From a virus: a DNA stretch of 20,054 nucleotides. The stretch covers positions 1 to 20,054 of IMG/VR virus record IMGVR_UViG_3300003690_001203, one strand, 5' to 3'. Each line of letters starts with the position of its first letter. Position 1 is the first letter of the stretch. The notes under the pieces were generated by a model. It was not told the DNA's origin. It did not search any database and saw only the letters and a list, made by a program, of their open reading frames with translations. The position numbers were made by a program, and so were the translations under genes. This document shows positions 6,855 to 20,054 of this stretch, piece by piece.

Positions 6855-7843
6855 GCACAAGAGTCATCGCCAGCAACGTTCTGGCAAACGGGCTGCGGAC
6901 CGAGTTCGCGGACACCTACGAGGCCATCCGAAATCGGCAAGCCGACTCGCGGTTGTCGAAGGTCATGGATCTCTCGATCGGCGCGACGAACCGCGAGCAC
7001 GACTTCGCTTACTTCGAGGCCGCGCCTCACATGACATACTGGGAGCGGCACACGACCATCCCGACCGACGCGATGGACAGTGTGACGTTCAACGTGCCGA
7101 TCTACGAGTGGGGTCGCAGGGTGCCGTGGAGCAAGTGGGACCGCAAGGACGACCAGACGCAGACGCTCATGCAAATGGCCCGCATGGCCGGCACGTCTGC
7201 CGCGTTACTTCCCGAACGGTTCTTGTTCGATTTGATCGCCGGCACGACCAACACCTTGCCGGCGACGATCAACGCGCCTGATGGCGTGGGCTTCTTCAAT
7301 GCCACCGACGGCGACGGCGGCGCGCGCTTCGGCGCGACCGGCGGCAACACGATCGCCGGCTCGGGTGTGACCGCTGCCGCTGTCCTCACCGACTTCTACG
7401 ACACGATCGTCCGCTTCAAGCAGTTTGAGGACGGCAAGGGTCAGCCTCTTCTCGGCGACGAGGTGCTAGAGTCCGGCTTCCTCATCATCCACCCGGTCGG
7501 CATGACCGAGGCGATGGAGCAAGCCTTCCTCCAGAAACGTCAGGTCAGCTCCGGCGGCACCGCGACGCCGTCCAACCTCGTGCAAGACGCGAGCCGCAAC
7601 ATCGAGCTGTGGGGTTCCCCACGTCTCACCGGCAACAACAACTGGTATTGCTTCCTCGCGAACCCGCCGAAGCAGGCGACCTTCTTCATCGACCGCGAAG
7701 GCGTGCAAGAGTTCTCGGCGCTGGAAGGCGACAACAACTCGGACAGCAACCGCAGCAAGGCCGAAGAGTACATCCAATGGGAGAGCCGTAGCTCGGGCGC
7801 GATCTCGCTGCCCTACGGTGCCATCGAGACCACGAACTCCTAG
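6851..7843 (+). CDS. Major capsid protein, Mu gpT-like
   Basis: This protein forms the icosahedral shell. It has 330 residues; Mu gpT has about 300. The family signature is visible at about 82-114: VPIYEWGRRVPWSKWDRKDD followed by QTLMQMARMAG. Typical gpT-like relatives have an R-x-x-x-W-S-R-x-D-x-x-D-D stretch here. PERFLFDLIAGT (121-132), NAPDGVGFF (141-149) and a C-terminal beta region ending with SLPYGAIETTNS also fit. It follows the protease/scaffold and decoration-like genes in the expected order, has a strong ribosome site, and is followed by a hairpin terminator that may limit read-through and keep capsid transcripts most abundant. Confidence 0.88.
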   Translation: MGTRVIASNVLANGLRTEFADTYEAIRNRQADSRLSKVMDLSIGATNREHDFAYFEAAPHMTYWERHTTIPTDAMDSVTFNVPIYEWGRRVPWSKWDRKDDQTQTLMQMARMAGTSAALLPERFLFDLIAGTTNTLPATINAPDGVGFFNATDGDGGARFGATGGNTIAGSGVTAAAVLTDFYDTIVRFKQFEDGKGQPLLGDEVLESGFLIIHPVGMTEAMEQAFLQKRQVSSGGTATPSNLVQDASRNIELWGSPRLTGNNNWYCFLANPPKQATFFIDREGVQEFSALEGDNNSDSNRSKAEEYIQWESRSSGAISLPYGAIETTNS

Positions 7844-7877
7844 CAGTAGCGGGCCGCGCCCGTCCTTGGTAGGCTCC

Positions 7878-7910
7878 ACGGGCCGCTGTTCCACTAGGAC
7901 GGCGGCCCGT
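7878..7910 (+). terminator. Hairpin terminator (or attenuator) after the major capsid gene
   Basis: ACGGGCCGC (7878-7886) pairs perfectly with GCGGCCCGT (7902-7910). Inner pairs, two of them G-U, extend the stem to about 14 bp around the loop cacta. The following tract (tgacatttcc) is only weakly T-rich, so termination may be partial. An upstream GCCCGT at 7858-7863 could pair with ACGGGC and compete with the stem. The final T of the stem begins a perfect TTGACA (7910-7915). Confidence 0.6.
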
Positions 7911-7962
7911 TGACATTTCCAAACCGACTCCAGCCCTACAACCCCAAGAGGACAGGACTACC

Positions 7963-8592
7963 ATGACAACCGAAGTGGAAATTCAGACCACCCACGTAGA
8001 CGGCAATCTACTCGTTCCGAACTTCGACGACCTCCCCGGCGTCACCCTCGGCACCGAACATGCCTATTGGATGGGCGTGACGCCCGACTGCCCCATTTCG
8101 CAAATCAACATCGTCGGCCTCAACTTCCCGAAGCGAAACGAAATCTTCGTTGCCGATCCGGTCAACCCCGGCGGGCAGAAGATTCGCGTGCCGTCGATCG
8201 GCGGGCTCCATCGCGCGGTCACTCAAGACCACATCATTGCACTGCGCGAGGTGCTGCCCCGGTTGGTGATTCGCTTTGCAACCGAGACACCTGGGCAGCA
8301 AGAAGAACCTGGGACCGGCGTCAACACCGGACACGTCTTCAAGCGGCAGAGGAAAGCCGAGCTGGTCATCATCCCGACGTCCGCGCAGATCGTGAAGGCG
8401 AAAGAAAACGGTACCCAGGTTCCGAGATACTCACGCCACGCCGGTGATCGCGCGGCCGCCGAGTTCATGTTCTTCAAGCTCTGCCTCGATCAAGCCGTGC
8501 CGCGTCGGGAGCTAACTTGCCCCGAGACGATCTTCCAGGGCGGTATCTTCTGGCCGGAAGACATCAACGAAATCAACGCCCTTTTGAGCTAG
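7963..8592 (+). CDS. Hypothetical virion-associated protein, head-tail region
   Basis: A 209-residue protein with a clear AAGAGGACAGG ribosome site before ATG 7963. I do not recognise the family. Mixed alpha/beta features include VTLGTEHAYWMGVTPDCP, INIVGLNFPKRNEIFVADPV and a basic stretch VFKRQRKAELVII, with a cysteine-containing C-terminus (LCLDQAVPRRELTCPETIFQ). No membrane segment or signal peptide is seen. It is the first gene after the terminator that follows the capsid gene and is 15 bases from the next gene, so it likely belongs to the neck or head-surface set. An additional head structural protein is possible from position only. Confidence 0.65.
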   Translation: MTTEVEIQTTHVDGNLLVPNFDDLPGVTLGTEHAYWMGVTPDCPISQINIVGLNFPKRNEIFVADPVNPGGQKIRVPSIGGLHRAVTQDHIIALREVLPRLVIRFATETPGQQEEPGTGVNTGHVFKRQRKAELVIIPTSAQIVKAKENGTQVPRYSRHAGDRAAAEFMFFKLCLDQAVPRRELTCPETIFQGGIFWPEDINEINALLS

Positions 8593-10450: not shown

Positions 10451-11035
10451 ATGGTCAAGAAGGACTTCGACCAGGGCGCGAAGATGCGCCGCTGGAAAAC
10501 CAACTTGGCGAACCCCGAGAAGGCGCTCAAGCAAATCGGTATAATGATGGTCGCCGAGTCGCGCGGCGCGTTCAAGAAGCAGCGATTCGGTAGCGAGCGG
10601 TGGTCGGCCCGCGCGGTCCCTAACGTCTACGGTGTCATCGAGGACCTGTGGTCAGGCAAGAAGAGTCCAGTCAAGCGGCGTTTCGACGACCGCCCCGTAC
10701 TTCGTGACACCGGTCTGCTCATGCGCTCGATCACCTACGCCGTGTCGGGCGACACCGTGACGGTGGGCACCGTTGTCCACTATGCCGACGTGCTACACGA
10801 CGGCGGCCCTATCAAGTCGCGGACAATCAACGCGCAAGTCCGTCGTCTACTCTACAAATGGCTCAGGGGTCGGGGCCGCGACTGGGTGGGTGAGCTTGGC
10901 TTCTTGCTCAACAAGAAGTTCAAGGACACCGAACTCGAAGGCGAGGTCGAAGCGCGGCCGTTCGTCGGCATCACCAAGCGCACCTTGACCAACGCGCAGA
11001 AGCTCGTCGGTACTCGCATCATGGAGGTTCAGTAA
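10451..11035 (+). CDS. Phage virion morphogenesis protein (Mu gpG / P2 gpS-like)
   Basis: The protein has 194 residues. It carries the family marks: an N-terminal helix with MVAESRGAFKKQRF, W-S-A-R, then RPVLRDTGLLMRSI (81-94), VHYADVLHDGG (109-119) and ARPFVGIT (168-175). The R-P-x-L-x-D-T-G-x-L-x-x-S-I and A-R-P-F-x-G motifs are hallmarks of tail completion / virion morphogenesis proteins, which help join tail to head. It starts one base after the preceding stop, and its stop (TAA, 11033-11035) overlaps the next start (TAATG). Strong family call; the exact step in assembly is inferred from relatives. Confidence 0.82.
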   Translation: MVKKDFDQGAKMRRWKTNLANPEKALKQIGIMMVAESRGAFKKQRFGSERWSARAVPNVYGVIEDLWSGKKSPVKRRFDDRPVLRDTGLLMRSITYAVSGDTVTVGTVVHYADVLHDGGPIKSRTINAQVRRLLYKWLRGRGRDWVGELGFLLNKKFKDTELEGEVEARPFVGITKRTLTNAQKLVGTRIMEVQ

Positions 11036-11601
11036 TGGCCGCCGGAATTTCACACAAGACGATGCGCGCCTCGGGTCGGCTTATCTGGAACCCCCAGAGC
11101 ATCACCAACTCAGACGGCAAATGGGGCGGCACCGTGCTCGGCGCGACGATGGCGTTCTCGATTCAATCGCTCGGCGAACAATACGAGATCGAGGGTGAGG
11201 GCATCGGCCGACCCACCGACATTCTCGAAGCCGACCGGCGCTACGCTTGCGGCTGCGCGCTGCGAGGTTGGGACGACGACGCTGCCCGGTACCTGATGAC
11301 CGACGGCGACACGGCCGTCGGCGCGGTCACTGGACATCGAATGTGGACCGCCCCCGGTGTCGTCATACCCGGTCAATCCGCGCTCAGTCGCGCCATCACC
11401 TTGCTCTACGCGCCCGACGACTACAACAACATCCCCGGCGTCATCGTCTACCACGCCATTCCCCAGCTCGCGCCCGGCATCGAGATCGAGTTTGGCAAGG
11501 GCGTCGAGACCATCATTCCTTTCGCGGCGCGTGCGTTCCAAGACACCAACGGAAACGCATTGACCATTGCCTTCGTCCGAGACATGACCTTCCCGTCCTA
11601 G
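11035..11601 (+). CDS. Probable tail tube protein
   Basis: A 188-residue, strongly beta protein. It reads GRLIWNPQSIT, then KWGGTVLGATMAFSIQ, EQYEIEGEGIGRPTDILEAD, later HAIPQLAPGIEIEFGKGVET and a final TIAFVRDMTF. The 'N-P ... GGT-x-LG ... E-x-x-G-x-P-x-D-x-x-x-x' order resembles tail tube or tube-like proteins of siphophages, which start with a G-T-x-L-G strand followed by an E-x-x-G-x-x-P-x-D segment. It sits after the virion morphogenesis gene, the usual tube location. No sheath gene is adjacent, so a contractile tail is not indicated. Moderate confidence: the fold is inferred, not proven. Confidence 0.55.
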   Translation: MAAGISHKTMRASGRLIWNPQSITNSDGKWGGTVLGATMAFSIQSLGEQYEIEGEGIGRPTDILEADRRYACGCALRGWDDDAARYLMTDGDTAVGAVTGHRMWTAPGVVIPGQSALSRAITLLYAPDDYNNIPGVIVYHAIPQLAPGIEIEFGKGVETIIPFAARAFQDTNGNALTIAFVRDMTFPS

Positions 11602-11605
11602 AACC

Positions 11606-12139
11606 ATGTGGTACCCCTTCAAGAAGAAGAAGACGCCCCGCGTCGGCAAGCTATCCAACGTCGCCTATGCGCGTTGGCTTCGAGCCTGTTCCCCGCAACC
11701 TATCATCGAGTTCCTCATCTACGACGAAGACGAGCAGGAGACTCTTGCCCAGGCGGGCGACGACTTCGCCGAGGACAGAGCCGAGACCGCCGCCGGCGCG
11801 ATTGCCGTCGTGATCTCGGCAGTCGCCGACGGCCTCGCCGACGGCGGTGGCCCCGCGATCGACGAGGGCGGCTTCGCTGAACAGGCAGCTCGCTCGGTCC
11901 TCCCAAATGCCCCAGGAGAGCCTCGGCCTCGGGCCGTCCCGAATATGGGCGGGGTCTTCCAGAGGCGACGAGAACGCATTCAGGCCGACCAGGAGGACGT
12001 TGACGCGCCCCGCCGGCTCTGCGGTCTGCCACCGGACTCCCAGAGGCCCGGATACGTGCCGCCAACCGAGCGCAAGGTCCTCCCCGACAAGATCGTACTG
12101 CCCGAGCTGGCCGAAGACGGTGGGGAGCAGACGGCATGA
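11606..12139 (+). CDS. Hypothetical protein in the tail module
   Basis: The gene encodes 177 residues, starting MWYPFKKKKTPRVGKLSNVA and continuing ARWLRACSPQPIIEFLIYDE. An Ala/Glu/Asp-rich helical stretch follows (AEDRAETAAGAIAVVISAVA), then a Pro/Arg-rich, probably disordered C-terminal half with RRRERIQADQEDVDAPRRLC. The first half looks folded and the second half does not. It starts 5 bases after the tail tube candidate and ends in an ATGA overlap with the next gene. Genes here often encode tail assembly chaperones, but I see no programmed slippage site, so the chaperone role is only a possibility. Confidence 0.6.
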   Translation: MWYPFKKKKTPRVGKLSNVAYARWLRACSPQPIIEFLIYDEDEQETLAQAGDDFAEDRAETAAGAIAVVISAVADGLADGGGPAIDEGGFAEQAARSVLPNAPGEPRPRAVPNMGGVFQRRRERIQADQEDVDAPRRLCGLPPDSQRPGYVPPTERKVLPDKIVLPELAEDGGEQTA

Positions 12140-12921
12140 ACGGCGGACAGCTCGCCCAGCAGATCAAGTACGAGTTGGAGCGCGTCGTCTGGAACGTCCC
12201 AGGCGGCACCGTCGTCTTCGGTGACGACGCTGTGCGGGTCACGTCGGGCGAGCCGACGCAAGAGCAGATGCCGAGCGCGTTCCCCTTCGCACTCGTCGTC
12301 CTCGGCGGCGGACCGGGCGACCCCTACGACTCCAACTTGATCGAGCAGAGCCTCACGGTCATTTGTGTCGCGGCCGTCGCCGGCGATCCGATGGGCGAGC
12401 ACGCGGTCATCGGTGGTTCAACCGACGATCTCAGGACGTCCTACGCTCGCGGTTCTTCCGAGATCACCGAGCGCGCCCGGTTCGCGATTCGCGATCTGAA
12501 CGGGTCCGACGGTTGCCAGCTATTACTAAGCGGCGTCGACGTCTCGACGCCGAAGAATCTCAACGGGCTCCAGTGCGTCTCGGAAGAGTTCACCGTCAAG
12601 GCGTGGTGTATGTCCGACGCGCACTACACCGCACCGCAAGAACTCAAGCTCGCCGGTTCGCTCTGGACTTGGGTTGGCGCGGATATGTGCCGGGGCCGCT
12701 TCGACTTCGTCGAGTACGACCTCGTCTACAAGACCGGCGCGACCGCGCCGTCGAGCCCGGCCGACGGCACTAGCGCCGGCAAGGTCAGCGACGCCGAGAC
12801 GATCGACGTCACGTCGCTTGCCAGCAAAACATACTGCATCTTCGCGACATACAATGCGCGGAAGAACGGGCTCGTCGAAGGCGCGAGCGAGCCGGTCGTC
12901 GGGAGCATCAAGACAACGTGA
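12136..12921 (+). CDS. Tail terminator-like protein with extra C-terminal beta domain
   Basis: The protein has 261 residues. The N-terminal part (about 1-160) starts with helix GGQLAQQIKYELERVVW and continues with strands PFALVVLGGG and LIEQSLTVICVAAVAGD, a helix, and a strand SGVDVSTPK. This helix-strand-strand-helix-strand layout fits tail terminator proteins (lambda gpU / Mu gp37-DUF1834 type), which cap the tail tube for joining to the head. From about 165 to 258 a separate beta domain follows (WTWVGADMCRGRFDFVEYDL, ASKTYCIFATYNARKNGLVE) that looks like an Ig/FN3-type strand set. It overlaps the genes on both sides by four bases. The fusion, if right, is unusual; both assignments are by pattern. 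Confidence 0.55.
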   Translation: MNGGQLAQQIKYELERVVWNVPGGTVVFGDDAVRVTSGEPTQEQMPSAFPFALVVLGGGPGDPYDSNLIEQSLTVICVAAVAGDPMGEHAVIGGSTDDLRTSYARGSSEITERARFAIRDLNGSDGCQLLLSGVDVSTPKNLNGLQCVSEEFTVKAWCMSDAHYTAPQELKLAGSLWTWVGADMCRGRFDFVEYDLVYKTGATAPSSPADGTSAGKVSDAETIDVTSLASKTYCIFATYNARKNGLVEGASEPVVGSIKTT

Positions 12922-13628
12922 GACTCGGCGACGACATGACAATGCAAGTTCGGCTCAAGCATGAGCGGAACAGTCCACGCGAACGCGCGGCCGAGGAACG
13001 CCAAGAGCGCAGTCAAGAGAAGAAGCGCCGCCGGTCGATGCGAAACCTACGACGCGCGCGAATGGCGCGACGTCGGTTGGGGCCAAAGCGCAAGCGGCGC
13101 GGTCCGAGATTGAGCAAGGGGTCCGCCGCGAAGCTCAAGGTTGCGAAATATACCGCGAAGGCGGCAGCGATGAGCACCCGTCTCGTTCCGATTCTCGGCT
13201 GGGCTATGCTCGCGAACGACGCGGCGCTCATATACCACGACTTCGGTCGTCGCATCTCGGGCGGCATGTCCGCGCGCCTCATTCAAGCGCAGGACTCGGC
13301 CATCTCGATGGGCGACTATTTGCCCCAGGCCGCGTCGGCGGCCGCCGCGATCGACTACGTCGAGAGCGACCCTGCACTACTACGCGCGACTGGCGAAGAC
13401 GGCCATATGTCGAGCACGCTTCGGTCGAACCTTGTCATCATTCGACAACTAGCATACGAGAGCGCGGTCGGCGCGGACATGATTCGACGCGACGCGCACT
13501 TCGACAGTGCCGATTCGTTCCTCGACAAGATTATCATGCAGGCCGAGCGAGCCGAGTTGAAGTCGATGGCCGATCGAACGTGTCACTTGATTCGCACCGA
13601 GCGCAGCGCGAAGGGCAAGGGTAAGTAG
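12918..13628 (+). CDS. Arg/Lys-rich protein with a hydrophobic helix, tail-interior candidate
   Basis: The protein has 236 residues from GTG 12918, which overlaps the previous stop (GTGA); ATG 12936 is an alternative start. Residues about 11-67 are extremely basic (QEKKRRRSMRNLRRARMARR, then LGPKRKRRGPRLSK), like a protamine or histone tail, so nucleic acid or membrane binding is likely. A hydrophobic stretch of about 23 residues follows (84-106, containing STRLVPILGWAMLANDAALI), long enough for a membrane or amphipathic helix. The rest is helical, with several Ala-rich stretches. It precedes two tape-measure-like proteins directly, with no gap. An ejected inner-tail protein is plausible but not proven; I do not recognise a family. 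Confidence 0.6.
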   Translation: MRLGDDMTMQVRLKHERNSPRERAAEERQERSQEKKRRRSMRNLRRARMARRRLGPKRKRRGPRLSKGSAAKLKVAKYTAKAAAMSTRLVPILGWAMLANDAALIYHDFGRRISGGMSARLIQAQDSAISMGDYLPQAASAAAAIDYVESDPALLRATGEDGHMSSTLRSNLVIIRQLAYESAVGADMIRRDAHFDSADSFLDKIIMQAERAELKSMADRTCHLIRTERSAKGKGK

Positions 13629-14201
13629 ATGGCGAAGGGCGCAGTCACCAAGCTCAAGCTCGACACCGACCGAGCGCAACGCGATCTCAAGGAACTCGCA
13701 CGCCAAGGCGAGGCGACGACGGGCCGCATCAACCGCAAGGGCAAAGGCGGCAGAGGTGGCGGCGGCAGCGCGTTCGGCAAAGGCTTCGGAGCCGGTGCTG
13801 GATTTGCTCTCGGCAAGAAGATCGCCGGCTCGGTCGGTTTCTTCTCGTCCATTGGCGACATCGCAAGCGACGCGCTCTCGGGTGTCCAAGCTGATGTTGA
13901 CTACAGTCTCGGCGCGCAGCTCTCGCGCGCCAAGAAGTCGGCACGCGAAGAGACGATCGCGGCCTTCGCGATGACATCCTACCACGCGGGCAACGCCGAC
14001 GACGCCAAGCAGTTCTACAACAACATCCTCCGCAGCCGGCACAAGCCGCAGCAAGAAGGCGCGGCCGCGATTATGCAAGCGATTGGCGGCTCGCGCGGAC
14101 TCGACGAAGACCTCAAGACACCGTTCGACAAGTTCACCGACGGCACCATCGAAGAGATCCGCACGGGTTTCCAGCGGTTGTTGGAGGCGCTCGGTGGCTG
14201 A
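13629..14201 (+). CDS. Short tape-measure-like protein, paralogue 1
   Basis: A 190-residue protein starting immediately after the preceding stop (tagATG). The N-terminus AVTKLKLDTDRAQRDLKELA resembles the first helix of tape measure proteins ('K-x-x-x-D-T-x-x-A-x-x-x-L'). It is followed by a Gly-rich, hydrophobic segment (GSAFGKGFGAGAGFALGKKI, then AGSVGFFSSIGDIA; about 46-80) and a helical C-terminus. Residues 100-160 (RAKKSAREETIAAFAM ... QAIGGSRGLDE) match the next gene's 98-159. It is far shorter than ordinary tape measures of more than 600 residues. A tail-interior role is an inference from context and N-terminal style. Confidence 0.6.
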   Translation: MAKGAVTKLKLDTDRAQRDLKELARQGEATTGRINRKGKGGRGGGGSAFGKGFGAGAGFALGKKIAGSVGFFSSIGDIASDALSGVQADVDYSLGAQLSRAKKSAREETIAAFAMTSYHAGNADDAKQFYNNILRSRHKPQQEGAAAIMQAIGGSRGLDEDLKTPFDKFTDGTIEEIRTGFQRLLEALGG

Positions 14202-14751
14202 AACCTTTCAGATCAAGGTCGACTTGCTCACAAAGCAGGCGAAGCGCGCACTCAAGCGACTACGCCAGCAGCGCAACCAGACGCGGACAACCGCACGCTC
14301 GCGGATCAAGACCGCGACGAAGCGCCGCGCTAAGAATCTCATTGGTTTTCTCGGTGGGTGGGCGGCGGTCAACCGAGTGACGCGCAAGATGCGCGGCGCA
14401 GACGGACAAGTTGACCCGTGGGTTGGTGCGATGATTCCGATTCAAGCCAAGCTCCAGCAATTCATCGACGAGAAGGTTGGGTTCAGCGCCAATGCGCGAC
14501 GCGCAGCGCGCAACGACACCGTCCAGGCGCTCGCGATGGGTGTCGGTATGGGCGTCACGAGCAAGCAGGCAATTCGTGAAGTCTTTTCCTATCACGACAA
14601 CATTCGCCAAGCCCAAGCGAAGGGCCGCAACATCGTTCGCCAAGCAATCAAGGGGCCGAGCCTCGACGAGCTTATCGTCGCCGCTACGAAGGGCTTCTTC
14701 AAACTTAGTGGACGCGCGTGGGCATACGTTTGGGATAGCATCTTCAACTAA
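14194..14751 (+). CDS. Short tape-measure-like protein, paralogue 2
   Basis: The protein has 185 residues from GTG 14194, overlapping the preceding gene by 8 bases, with GGAGG at 14183-14187, six bases before it; this site decides the start. N-terminus AETFQIKVDLLTKQAKRALK continues into a very basic coiled region (RLRQQRNQTRTTARSRIKTA) and a hydrophobic segment (NLIGFLGGWAAVN, 48-60). Residues 98-159 (ANARRAARNDTVQALAM ... QAIKGPSLDE) resemble the neighbour at 13629. The 'I-K-V-D-L-x-T-K-Q-A-x-x-x-L' start looks like a tape measure N-terminus. C-terminal aromatic residues end the protein (GRAWAYVWDSIF). The role is inferred; the coding status is good. Confidence 0.62.
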   Translation: MAETFQIKVDLLTKQAKRALKRLRQQRNQTRTTARSRIKTATKRRAKNLIGFLGGWAAVNRVTRKMRGADGQVDPWVGAMIPIQAKLQQFIDEKVGFSANARRAARNDTVQALAMGVGMGVTSKQAIREVFSYHDNIRQAQAKGRNIVRQAIKGPSLDELIVAATKGFFKLSGRAWAYVWDSIFN

Positions 14752-14753
14752 TC

Positions 14754-16121
14754 ATGTCACTCGATAGCAAAGTCACGATCACCTGGGCGGGCACCGCATA
14801 CGGCGGAACCTCGACGAGTCGCCAAATCGACGGCGGCTACGTGATGGACCGCGCCTACGATCACATGAGGTTGACGTTCAACGTGATGCTCGTCGCCGCG
14901 ACGGCGGCCGCCCGGCAGACTATGCCCGAGGCTCTTGAACTCAACTTCTCCAAGCGCGACGAAGACCTCGTCGTCAACGTCGGCGGTACGTCGTTCACGT
15001 TCACGGCCGGCGTTCACTTCTTGGACTCGCGATCGAGCTGCACCAAGTCGGGAGTGTCGATGACAGACCGAGGTGCGAGCGCCGCCTATACCTGCGTCGT
15101 CGAAGCCGACATGCCGAGCGAGAACCCGGCCTCGGGTCTCGTGCAACTAGAGTCGACGGTCGACTACGAGGTTGGTCGTCAAGCTATCGTCACGCTCTCG
15201 GGCATCTACACCGCGACGTCAACCGAGGCGCAGGCCAGCGAGAACGCGACCGCCGAGTCGACGACGTTCCTCGCATCACTCGGCACGCCGCCGTCGTCGT
15301 CCTTCGAGCTGGTCGATGAACAATACACCTACAACCGACTCGACACGACTTGCCAGTGGTCGAGACAGTGGCAAGAGGTCCTCGCTAATCAGACCGAGAT
15401 AGCCTTGATCGACACGCAGATCAAAGACCACAGGATGACCTTCACCGAGACGACCCAGCACCCAGGCGACTCGAAGGAAGGCATCCACCGACTACGTCGC
15501 GTCGTCGGGACCTACGATTGCGCGCTCGACATTCGCGTCACGACCAACGTCAAGAGTGTCTTCAAGTCCAGGGTGCTCCCGCATCTCAAGGCGCTCTTCG
15601 TCTCGACGTTTGGGCCGAGCGAGTGGACGGTCGAGGATCACCGGCACACCTACGACGAGACCGCGAAGCGCCTATCGGTCGCCATCAACTTCCTCTTCGT
15701 GCCGGGGGATTCGGGCAGCGAAATCATCGAGATCCAGTTGACGGCCGCCTACAAGGAACTCCGCACGATCGACGAGACGCCGGTCCACGGCGGCGGCGAG
15801 TTCGAGAAGTATGTCGACCTCGGCTGGGCGACACTGGAGCGGATCACGCAGCGCACCGTCACGGCCGTCGGCGACATGGAACCCGTTCGCAGACTCGGCG
15901 AAATACCCAAGCCAGGCATCGCCGGCTTCTTGCAGTTTCGCAACAAGAAGCCGCCGGATAAGGGCGTCGCCGATACGGGTTGGAACCTCATCAGCAACGT
16001 CAGCCAAGTCAGCGACGTTTGGATCGGCGACCCAAACGAGACCCAGATCAAGACAAGCATTCTCGTCGAGACGATGGTCGAACGCTACAGCGTGAAACCG
16101 GGCACCACGGGGCAGCAGTAA
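14754..16121 (+). CDS. Large beta-rich tail or baseplate protein
   Basis: A 455-residue protein starting two bases after the previous stop. It is almost all beta in character: SKVTITWAGTAYGGTSTSRQ, LTFNVMLVAAT, SAAYTCVVEADMPSE, VGRQAIVTLSGIYTA. A repeat-like second half (RLSVAINFLFVPGDSGSEII and others) follows, and near the end there is IAGFLQFRNKKPPDKGVADT. Two domains of similar strand pattern are suggested, one before and one after about residue 200. It precedes the hub candidate with the next ATG touching its stop (taaATG), so the two are translationally linked. No family is recognised; tail tip or baseplate wedge/distal tail role inferred from position. Confidence 0.65.
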   Translation: MSLDSKVTITWAGTAYGGTSTSRQIDGGYVMDRAYDHMRLTFNVMLVAATAAARQTMPEALELNFSKRDEDLVVNVGGTSFTFTAGVHFLDSRSSCTKSGVSMTDRGASAAYTCVVEADMPSENPASGLVQLESTVDYEVGRQAIVTLSGIYTATSTEAQASENATAESTTFLASLGTPPSSSFELVDEQYTYNRLDTTCQWSRQWQEVLANQTEIALIDTQIKDHRMTFTETTQHPGDSKEGIHRLRRVVGTYDCALDIRVTTNVKSVFKSRVLPHLKALFVSTFGPSEWTVEDHRHTYDETAKRLSVAINFLFVPGDSGSEIIEIQLTAAYKELRTIDETPVHGGGEFEKYVDLGWATLERITQRTVTAVGDMEPVRRLGEIPKPGIAGFLQFRNKKPPDKGVADTGWNLISNVSQVSDVWIGDPNETQIKTSILVETMVERYSVKPGTTGQQ

Positions 16122-18205
16122 ATGGGAGCGGTCAAGAAACCAACGGTGGAGTTCGCGGGCGTAAAGCTCGCCGCGACGAGCACGGTCGCGTGGCGATTCC
16201 AGGCCGGCGTCCAACCCTACATGGCGACCTTCTCTTGCTACCAGAAGGATTGGGATGAGAAACTCTCGGGCAAGAAGGGCGAACCGAAAAGCCTCGTCAT
16301 CGTCGACGCTCGCGGCAAGCGCACCGAGATCAAGGACCTCTTCATCCTACACGAAGTCGCAAGCGCCAAGCCGCACCTCCAATCGTTCGTCGTCGCCGAT
16401 CGTCGCTGGCGGTGGCACCGCAAGCTAATCGCTCGCGTCTACAATATGTCGCGCAAGACAGGCGACCGGGACCTCGATGGGAAGACGCTACCGATCGAAG
16501 GCAAGGAAGGCATCCCGAAGTATGACTACCGACCCTACTCGCTCATCGGCGGCGACGAAGTCTGGACCGCACGCGAGGCATTACAGGACGCACTAGAGCA
16601 GATCGAAGACAAGCTCTTCGACGGGTTCGGCGGCAAGATCATCTTCTCGTCGTTCCCCGCGACGACCAGCTTCACGATGCAGAACGTGATGATCCGCGAC
16701 GGCGGCGACGTCGCGATCGAGAGACTACTCGCACTCATCCCCGGCGCGAATCTGTGGATCAACCGGCAGGGTCAGATCATCGTCTACAACCAACACGATC
16801 TCGCGGCCGCCGAGTCCTATCTCAAGAACCTACCGCCGGCGACGTGGGACGGTGACAAGTCTACGCCGGTCCTCAAGAACAAGATTCGCCCGCGCAAGAT
16901 CATCGTCCACTACGAACGCGAGGTCGAGTGCGTCATGCACCAAGACCGTCGGCCCCGGAACGTGGGTGAACTTTGAGGCGTGGCTCAAGGCGATGCACAA
17001 ACTACACGGCCCAGCTAAGGTCGCCGGCGCGCAACCGTGGACCTTTGAAACCATCAAGCGGTTTTGGCTCAAGGGGTCTCTGGAAGGGATGCTCATTGGC
17101 AAGAAGCGGCGCGGCTCGGTAAAGGACGTTGCAGTTGACGCGAACCGGCTAACCGCTGTGCGCGCGGTGCGCGAATCGTTCCGCCAAGATTTCCGAATCT
17201 CGCGCCGCTACATGGAGCGACTCCAAGACGTCAAGCCGGTGCGGGTCGCGCTACTCGATCCAGTCTCGGGGATGCGACAGCCGGCATCAGTCTGGGGTGA
17301 AGCCTGTTTGGTCCCAACGGCAAAGGGCACTCACGTCGCCCAGCGAAAGAACAACGGCAAGTCTGGAATCTTCTACAACATCACCACGCTACCCGAAGGC
17401 GATCAGCAGCTCACAAAGCAAGCTCCGGGTCCGCAGAGGCTCACCTTCAAGGATGCTGCGGCCGGCATTCTCCGCATCACCGGCATGGATGACCCTTACG
17501 GTTCCTACTCGGCGGTCTATCCGAGTCATGTCGTCAACGAAAAAAACGAACCCGAGGTTCCGGTGCGCGCTCTGGTCTTGCAGGACGATCATACTATGGG
17601 CGCGGCGATGCGACTCCAAAACGCAACCAACCAACTATTCCTAAGCTCAACGCTCAAGTTCAAAGTCCTTATCACGATCCTCCCTGGGTGCCCGAACAAC
17701 AAGGGCCAGTTCCACACCGAAGAGGTCACGCCCGACGAGCTGCGCGAGAGCTTCCCACAGTTTAGGATCCAAGACGGCCTCGGACCTGATTATGACGTCT
17801 ATGTGCCCGCATCCGAAGTGACCGCGCGCTTCGCGTGGCGCAGAGACAAGGAAGCCGAAAAGACGATCACCAAATTGCTCGGACTCGACGACCCCGACCC
17901 GACGACCGGTGGCCTCATCGACGAGAAGGGACACGCGACGCGGTCGCTCCCCGGCTTCACCCTCGTCAACGTGCAGCGCGAACTCTACAACCATTCGCGC
18001 GCCGTCGCGGCCGAGACCTACACCTCATTCGCCGATACGGTTGTCGGCAAGGTGGCGACAATCGTACCGCCCAACGACATCGAGTTGCGAGGAAACATGG
18101 GGGGCGCTCCACGACTTCTCCGGGGTCACTCGGTCGGTCAGTCGGCTCGGGTTCATGTCCGAAGGCGCACGCAAGGTCGTGCTCGGCATCGTGAGATTTG
18201 ATTAG
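16122..18205 (+). CDS. Probable tail hub protein, two apparent frameshifts
   Basis: The gene starts at ATG 16122 directly after the previous TAA. The first frame runs to about residue 271 (KIIVHYEREVEC), then would stop at 16974-16976. The frame one base later continues without a seam (TKTVGPGTWVNFEAWLKAMH) to about 18098. There a run of six G (18099-18104) shifts it again; removing one G gives NMGALHDFSGVTRSVSRLGF and the end VVLGIVRFD at TAG 18203-18205. The span of 2084 bases minus two gives 694 codons, so about 693 residues. Features include an N-terminal beta domain, GANLWINRQGQIIVYN (about 208-223) as in hub-type proteins, and a helical and beta C-terminal region. The hub call rests on size and position; the reading frame reconstruction is well supported. 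Confidence 0.65.
18099..18104 (+). other. Run of six G at a frame break
   Basis: Six G (atggggggcgct). The frame changes exactly here: with five G the protein continues as MGALHDFSGV; with six it becomes an Arg-rich tail ending at TGA 18199-18201. Typical site of a homopolymer read error, and also the type of tract used for slippage or phase variation. Confidence 0.8.
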
Positions 18206-20054
18206 ATGGCTGTAGGTTTCACCGACTGGACCGACCTCGGGTTCTTCCCGTTCCAAGATCACGAAGACGGCGTGCCGCTCGGAATGCGTCAGCAGATCGC
18301 CGGCGGTCGCGTCATCTCGCTCACCGACCCAGCCGAGACCGATGACCCGGCCGAGACAATCCACATCATCGGCGAAGAAGATGACATGGGAACCCTCGGC
18401 GACCTCTGGCCGATGGGATTCTGGCAGACGCGCGACCGCGATGAGCGAGACACGGGTTGCTGGTCGCAATCGTGGCCGGCGATTACCGTCGCCATCAAGT
18501 CTGGCGGACCGATCACCGGACCCGGCGACGACGAGGCACCGGGCGTCATTCCGATCATCACTTCGATGCACGGTGCCGATGGTCGGATGAAGACCAAGAT
18601 GCCCAACTACCCGAAGAGCTTCTCGCAGCTCCCCGAAGGTTGGGACACGATCGTCATGCCCGGCATGGAAGAGACCGCGCAGCATCTCGTGATGATGTCC
18701 GTCGATCCGCGCATCGTCGTCGCGAATGTCGGCGGACCGGGCAAGTGCTCGACGTTGTTCGTCGACCTCCAACCGGACAAAGAGCCGTGTATGGACTTTG
18801 ACGATAGAGACCCAGGACAAGGCGGCCGAGCTGCGCGCTCGTCGTCAATGATGAAAGTCATTCCGCTCAACGCCAACTCAACCGGGCCGCTCGGGGCCGG
18901 CGACTTCAACGGACTCGCGTGGAACTGCGCGCTCGGTAAGCAAGAATCCATTCTCGGCTACGGCATGTGCTGGATTCGGATGAACTCGGGCGGCGGCGGT
19001 GGCCCGATGCAGGGACCGATCACCGGCGGCCCGGTCACGCCGCGACCACCGGGGCCGATCACGCATGGCGGCGTGAAGGGAACACCGGCACCGCGCGGTG
19101 GCCTGTATGGCAAGGACCTTCGCGGAGAGGGAAGCGGCGGCGGCGGCGTTGGCGGTGGCGATATCGGCGACGGCCCCGAGCAAGGCGGTGGCACGATCCT
19201 ACGCGGCCGCAAGGGATTCACCGGCGGCCCCGGCGGTAATGGCCGCACCGCCAACGCCGGCAATGGTGGACGTCACGACCGCGATCGTGAGACGCCCGAC
19301 GATTGGGGCAAGTTCGCGCCAAAGGCAGAAGGCGGGCACGGCGTCACGTTCATCGCGCAGGTTGGCGCGTGTGGTCCTGTTGACGGCGGCTACGGCAGCG
19401 GCGACAAGCACTCAATTGGTACGGACCTCGACGGCAATCCGATGGTCTCAGCTCACATTTCGTCGAACGCTTACTTTGCGAAAACCCAAGAGTTCGACGC
19501 GCCGCTTGAGTTCAAAGACCGCGCTTACTTTGCGAAAACCCAAGAGTTCGACGCGCCGCTTGAGTTCAAAGACCGCTACCCGGAGGACGTGAAGACCGCA
19601 CCGATGAAAGTGGAAGTGCGCCTCGAATACGACAAAGACAAAGTTCACAAGTGGATCAAGGGGAGCAAGCCGGGCCTCTGGCGTTGGTGGTCGACGACTA
19701 ACATTTGCATCCCCGACACCCCAATGGACGGGCCGATGGATGGGCCGATGGATGGGCCGATGGGTGGGCCGGGGCCACCGGGGCCGAAGACACCGGGGCC
19801 AACGCCGCCGGGGCCGGTGCCAGCGCCGCCGGGGCCGAAGACGCCGGGTGGGCCGACGAAGCCCGGTCCGATCACGCCGATGCGTCGTGGCTATGGCGGG
19901 CCTAACGCGGTCAAACCAAGCTACGGTCGTCCGATCACCGGCGGCCCAAAGACGCTACCCCGAGCGCCGGGACCGGGCGGCAGCGGCGGGCATCAAAGTA
20001 CCGGGAGAGACTGGCACCCCGGTGCTGGGTCTCCAGGTCTGGGGGGAGTCAACA
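18206..20054 (+). CDS. Gly/Pro-rich structural protein, probable fibre (open to window end)
   Basis: ATG 18206 follows the previous stop directly (tagATG); the frame has no stop in the remaining 1849 bases, so at least 616 residues. Residues about 1-260 form a non-repetitive domain beginning MAVGFTDWTDLGFFPFQDHE. About 261-365 are Gly-rich with repeated PITGGP-type motifs (for example GPITGGPVTPRPPGPITHGG). About 370-505 contain a beta segment and two identical 18-residue units (422-457, AYFAKTQEFDAPLEFKDR twice). From 507 four MDGP-type tetrapeptides lead into a Pro/Gly-rich, collagen-like stretch (PGPPGPKTPGPTPPGPVPAP). Low-complexity extended regions between folded parts are typical of fibres. 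It lies last in the tail cluster, as receptor-binding genes usually do. No catalytic motif is seen. Function inferred. Confidence 0.7.
   Translation, partial: MAVGFTDWTDLGFFPFQDHEDGVPLGMRQQIAGGRVISLTDPAETDDPAETIHIIGEEDDMGTLGDLWPMGFWQTRDRDERDTGCWSQSWPAITVAIKSGGPITGPGDDEAPGVIPIITSMHGADGRMKTKMPNYPKSFSQLPEGWDTIVMPGMEETAQHLVMMSVDPRIVVANVGGPGKCSTLFVDLQPDKEPCMDFDDRDPGQGGRAARSSSMMKVIPLNANSTGPLGAGDFNGLAWNCALGKQESILGYGMCWIRMNSGGGGGPMQGPITGGPVTPRPPGPITHGGVKGTPAPRGGLYGKDLRGEGSGGGGVGGGDIGDGPEQGGGTILRGRKGFTGGPGGNGRTANAGNGGRHDRDRETPDDWGKFAPKAEGGHGVTFIAQVGACGPVDGGYGSGDKHSIGTDLDGNPMVSAHISSNAYFAKTQEFDAPLEFKDRAYFAKTQEFDAPLEFKDRYPEDVKTAPMKVEVRLEYDKDKVHKWIKGSKPGLWRWWSTTNICIPDTPMDGPMDGPMDGPMGGPGPPGPKTPGPTPPGPVPAPPGPKTPGGPTKPGPITPMRRGYGGPNAVKPSYGRPITGGPKTLPRAPGPGGSGGHQSTGRDWHPGAGSPGLGGVN
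19469..19576 (+). repeat. Perfect 54-bp tandem duplication inside the fibre-like gene
   Basis: Unit 1 at 19469-19522 and unit 2 at 19523-19576 are identical over all 54 bases, each starting gcttactttgcgaaaaccc. The unit encodes AYFAKTQEFDAPLEFKDR and keeps the frame. Identity at third positions implies a recent event or an assembly duplication. Confidence 0.95.
19724..19771 (+). repeat. Four 12-bp repeats coding MDGP
   Basis: Four units of atgga(c/t)gggccg type (the last reads atgggtgggccg) encode MDGP MDGP MDGP MGGP, then run into the Pro/Gly-rich tract. Such short in-frame repeats can change in number by slippage. Confidence 0.85.

Follow-up and report, generated by a model that had tools for sequence, protein, structure and literature searches.

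Genes between the tail tube and the hub

The window analysed here is the entire uncultivated virus record IMGVR_UViG_3300003690_001203, a linear fragment of 20,054 bp. Among the genes of a tube-tailed phage, that for the tape measure is as a rule the longest. At 12918-14751 the window has no long tape measure gene, and the stretch comprises three short genes on the plus strand with separate starts, as the first-pass annotation had described. Gene C (12918-13628) starts with GTG and encodes 236 aa, with a C-terminal domain in common with A and B. Gene A (13629-14201; ATG, 190 aa) is a short tape-measure candidate by its open reading frame (ORF) and family profiles. Gene B (14194-14751; GTG, 185 aa) is a duplicate of A, as judged from ORF, profiles and tree. 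Neighbouring genes touch or share a few bases, the B start overlapping the A stop by 8 bases, and there is no longer ORF on the coding strand between 12921 and 14754.

The A protein consists of an N-terminal KLKLDTDRAQRDLKEL stretch, a Gly-rich middle, and a C-terminal domain that is helical in a low-confidence model. A and B both have a Gly-rich, mildly hydrophobic stretch, and the motif block reported earlier for the pair occurs at matching positions in the two, with ARxxTxxAxAM at residue 105 and QAI(G/K)G at residue 150. The AlphaFold model of A has low confidence (pLDDT 64, pTM 0.30). It is predicted to be all-helical, with helices at residues 14-39, 86-120, 123-151, and 160-187 around a Gly-rich loop. 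These helices of 26-35 residues do not form one long rod, and strands are absent. A Foldseek search with this low-confidence model gave no structural match. In C, the N-terminal third is very basic, 27 of the first 70 residues being K/R, and a moderately hydrophobic segment lies near residues 89-107 (Kyte-Doolittle 1.22). In most of the distant C orthologues, hydrophobic 19-mers reach Kyte-Doolittle values of 2.0-2.8 (up to 2.78), and by hydropathy the C protein of most relatives has a good candidate transmembrane helix.

Library searches with A and B of the window gave no significant match, and the A/B family proteins have no match in Pfam. Eight A/B orthologues of the A13 family, from single-copy lineages, match phrog_1204 ('tail protein', 1483 positions) with a best E of 1.4e-5, and A/B residues 1-103 align to profile positions 125-235. 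An internal part of phrog_167 (tape measure, 1555 positions) is matched weakly, with three A/B orthologues matching a tape measure PHROG at a best E of 0.006. The tape-measure-style N-terminus that the first-pass annotation assigned to A and B is supported; the matches, which for phrog_1204 lie in the N-terminal part of the profile, come from some of the orthologues and from none of the window proteins. Profiles of A, B, C, the tube, and the hub found nothing credible in a PDB sequence search.

The tail module and its relatives

The tail module of the window is nearly without library matches. The portal belongs to the phrog_113 family (E 8e-23), the head module has a weak match to a major head protein, and the neck protein is of the Phage_tail_S / Mu gpG type (PF05069). 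On the plus strand, the gene at 11035..11601 encodes a protein of 188 aa whose AlphaFold model (pLDDT 82, pTM 0.76) has as its best Foldseek matches the tail-tube and connector proteins of phages Douge, YSD1, Sf11, Chi, and Bxb1 (E 6e-6 to 6e-4); against viral major tail proteins, E falls to about 1e-7. By its predicted fold this product, 11035, is the tail-tube (major tail) protein. A tubular tail is expected because of this fold, and a short tubular tail fits the predicted structure better than a podovirus-type tail.

The tube is the only protein of the module whose name is confirmed by a (predicted) fold; the terminator, distal-tail, and hub names reflect position only. The gene at 11606..12139 (+) encodes a small conserved tail-module protein, known from its position and from orthologues in relatives, at a place often taken by chaperones. 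It is followed at 12136..12921 (+) by a conserved 261-aa protein, tail-terminator-like by position, with orthologues in nearly all relatives; a terminator profile matched the orthologue of one relative only, and very weakly (E 0.57). Downstream of B, the gene at 14754..16121 (+) encodes a conserved 455-aa protein, kept in relatives and placed by position as a distal tail or baseplate component, for which no library match was found. The tail hub-like gene at 16122..18201 (+) encodes about 740-790 aa in relatives.

The window hub gene (16122-18201) is split, with about 43 residues missing and a frame change at 16936-16940, and is one intact ORF in relatives; the cause may be a genuine deletion or faulty assembly. 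The fibre gene at 18206 has collagen-like Gly-Pro repeats and a perfect 54-bp tandem duplication at 19468-19576. In two relatives, L042 (3448-5835) and L043 (3699-5951), the tube match lies inside an ORF of 750-795 aa, and in G004 a 423-aa ORF (29106-30377, in L005) is inserted directly before the tube gene. These enlarged ORFs and the insert possibly represent a decoration domain or an inserted gene.

The family was recruited by the major capsid profile first and then by the hub profile. The capsid protein search gave 9 viral contigs, the 14754 profile gave 6 loci (4 on contigs new to the set), and the hub profile gave 31 loci, part of them on already-known or near-identical contigs. With the window sequences alone as queries, no relatives of 14754 or 13629 were found in viral contigs or phage records. 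Among the phage records searched, no named phage was found to encode a relative of the hub, 14754, or A/B proteins, and the 14754 and hub profiles found no prophage in the bacterial and archaeal genomes scanned. The order in nearly all relatives is tube, small gene, terminator-like gene, C, A/B, 14754, hub, and fibre. Four relatives form a family of apparently complete genomes of 41-48 kb: G010, G011, G014, and G015. A DNA polymerase A is present in G010, as is a SASA-type carbohydrate esterase of 684 aa, encoded between terminase and portal (L055, 4936-6987); ORFs of 560-684 aa similar to this esterase lie near the portal in several other relatives.

Copy number and paralogy of C, A, and B

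In 26 lineages, C-type and A/B-type genes are found in this slot, with the tube/terminator-like genes on one side and the 14754/hub genes on the other. Eight of these lineages have two A/B genes (the window, L004, L007, L018, L019, L023, L025, and L029), and the stretch from the terminator-like gene to 14754 is about 1.81-1.91 kb. The other 18, which are more distant, have one A/B gene of about 190 aa, generally adjoining a C gene of about 250 aa that was read uncleanly in 2 of the 18 (L032 and L050). Here the corresponding stretch is about 1.24-1.47 kb. The A/B length is closely kept in the single-copy lineages, at 186-190 aa in 14 of 18 orthologues and at most 204 in 17 of 18. Since C with one A/B gene is the usual state, the two-copy state is taken as a derived duplication. 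The most distant relatives are L052 and L053. L052 has no credible match to the family proteins, and L053 has in the slot a single 256-aa protein (7430-8200) with a tape-measure-style N-terminus (KIRITIDPSEAKRQL) and a marginal match (E 0.011), which is perhaps the ancestral one-gene state.

Direct alignment of A and B gives a score of 68, which was reached in 0 of 1000 shuffles (maximum 59). The profile comparison suggested in the first-pass annotation upholds this relation: the A and B family profiles match with 98.9-99.0% probability and E values from 1.7e-17 to 2.3e-18 (the latter at 99.0%), and 100 column-permuted profiles gave at most 0.8%. In a maximum-likelihood tree, A and B each form one group (95/88 and 100/100) and are joined together apart from the single-copy proteins (93/92), with B changing fastest after the duplication. 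As read from these sequences, A and B are the products of one duplication in the branch of the window.

C is more remote. C of the window shows no match to A of the window alone, 508 of 1000 shuffles being as good, and a C profile built from six close orthologues only found no relation to A/B. The relation is clearly positive once distant single-copy lineages are added to the profiles. Single-copy A/B and C from the same lineages then match at 98.3% (E 2.5e-14); the alignment is collinear and covers 112 columns in the C-terminal half. Column-permuted controls gave at most 0.6%, and other tail families and reversed profiles at most 0.4%. A C-terminal domain of about 110 residues is therefore common to C and A/B, and the C protein of L037 also carries an A-like N-terminus. 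With distant orthologues included, C and A/B prove to be related families, so that all three genes are paralogous. The original claim of two paralogues among the three holds for A and B and is too narrow with respect to C.

A proposed miniature tape measure, its alternatives, and known systems

The slot, the predicted tube fold, and the partial similarity to tail profiles together point to A/B as a miniature tape measure. The best explanation, which is rather probable, is a short non-contractile tail in which A/B is the miniature tape measure and C is a membrane-inserting partner. The phages of this family probably build very short tails. From the genes and models we infer a ruler function, location in the tube, anchoring, tail length, stoichiometry, and membrane role as follows. 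The lumen of the tail would hold the miniature tape-measure proteins. An A/B-type protein would both measure and plug the tube, anchored at the hub by its C-terminal domain, which is predicted to be helical. The tube protein 11035 would polymerise around A/B, adding no more than a few discs. As a diverged paralogue whose N-terminus is basic and which in most relatives has a good candidate transmembrane helix, C would sit alongside A/B and on ejection could be released as part of a channel through the host membrane. Length, plug, and membrane channel, which usually belong to one long tape measure, would thus be split over two to three small related proteins.

Another arrangement, a minor but real possibility, is a split ruler in which C, A, and B co-assemble in the tube and replace the single long tape measure. 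One branch would then have changed its tail length by duplication, with A and B stacked end to end, rather than by lengthening one gene.

A rather unlikely alternative is that C, A, and B act as ejection proteins of the podovirus kind, which would wait in the head or neck and leave it to build a trans-envelope channel, with tail length set otherwise, for example by a hub/14754 complex. Like the T7- and P22-type internal proteins, they form a set of small proteins with a possible joint role in crossing the membrane. One of them combines a basic N-terminus with a strongly hydrophobic segment; Gly-rich segments in the slot proteins and one weak 'DNA ejection' PHROG match (E 0.037) also agree with such a role. 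In contrast to podovirus systems, the module has a tail-tube gene by predicted fold, and there is no significant sequence match to the ejection proteins. The genes also occupy the tape-measure slot, and the tightly kept A/B length argues against such a role.

A function as tail assembly chaperones or tail-completion factors outside the virion, in a tail that needs no ruler, is quite unlikely. The genes lie near the tube gene, and for one B member there is a match to a tail assembly chaperone PHROG (E 0.0085), but the N-terminal matches to long tail and tape-measure profiles are stronger and occur in more members. The hydrophobic segments in C, and a separate start for every gene in the lineages read, also speak against it.

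The window is a 20-kb fragment, and a conventional long tape measure could lie elsewhere in the genome, with C, A, and B as accessory genes. This is very unlikely given the longer relatives, in which the gene named by the first-pass annotation as contrary evidence was looked for on contigs of 31-48 kb and not found. G010 (47.9 kb), G014 (46.4 kb), G015 (44.7 kb), and G011 (41.4 kb) have identical ends of 75-127 bases; they appear complete because their ends repeat exactly, as in a self-closing contig, and their completeness rests on these repeats. In these four, neither the family profiles nor the long ORFs that were checked individually show a conventional tape measure. The long ORFs tested in G010 encode DNA polymerase A, a DUF2800 nuclease-like protein, an AAA ATPase, the SASA esterase, and the fibre gene product; one ORF of 448 aa had no match. 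PF10145 and PF20155 found nothing in eleven records, even at E 1. In the circularly permuted G004 (31.5 kb), the rest of the genome, from the fibre gene to g11606, is without a long tape measure gene.

Pieces of one tape measure broken by frameshifts or assembly errors, as the nearby broken hub gene might suggest, have next to no probability and this candidate was rejected, since the identical layout of three separate genes recurs in the seven other, independent two-copy lineages, which marks C, A, and B as real genes, and each of them starts separately and shows homology to the other two, not to consecutive stretches of a single protein.

If A/B do act as a miniature ruler, the lineage would offer a naturally minimal case in which to study how a ruler begins, measures, and stops, and proteins of about 190-250 residues are small enough for complete structure determination. 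The one-copy and two-copy sister lineages offer a direct test: A and B acting in series would give tails that differ in length, and in parallel tails of the same length.

A search of the open-licence literature gave no matching report of split, duplicated, or very short tape measures in a phage family. A very short tape measure is already known from RcGTA, the Rhodobacter capsulatus gene transfer agent; a paralogous miniature set with clade-specific duplication was not found reported in the literature searched. Compared with phrog_1204 and phrog_167, A/B are about one eighth as long, and the rest of the PHROG family profile is absent. In the siphophage JBD30 (Casadabanvirus), the tape measure gp46, which forms a trimer, has 1158 residues for 45 discs in a 180-nm tail, or about 26 residues per disc, and a membrane-channel function after ejection has been proposed (PMC11445458). 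A, B, and C resemble gp46 in their slot between the tube and distal tail genes, and differ in having 185-250 residues per protein.

The RcGTA tape measure g11 (Rcc01694) has about 216 residues (113 + 83 + 20) and fills the five-disc tube of a 49-nm tail (PMC7296036). It is the product of one gene, with an N-terminal helix of 113 residues followed by a beta-rich, needle-like part (PMC7296036). By these yardsticks, A and B lying side by side would give roughly 3-7 discs; at the JBD30 ratio, 190 residues alone would span about seven, and A and B end to end up to about 15. A/B are comparable to g11 in size (about 190 aa). Unlike g11, the low-confidence A model is all-helical, with a longest helix of 35 residues and no strands, and the single gene of RcGTA has its counterpart here in two to three paralogous genes.
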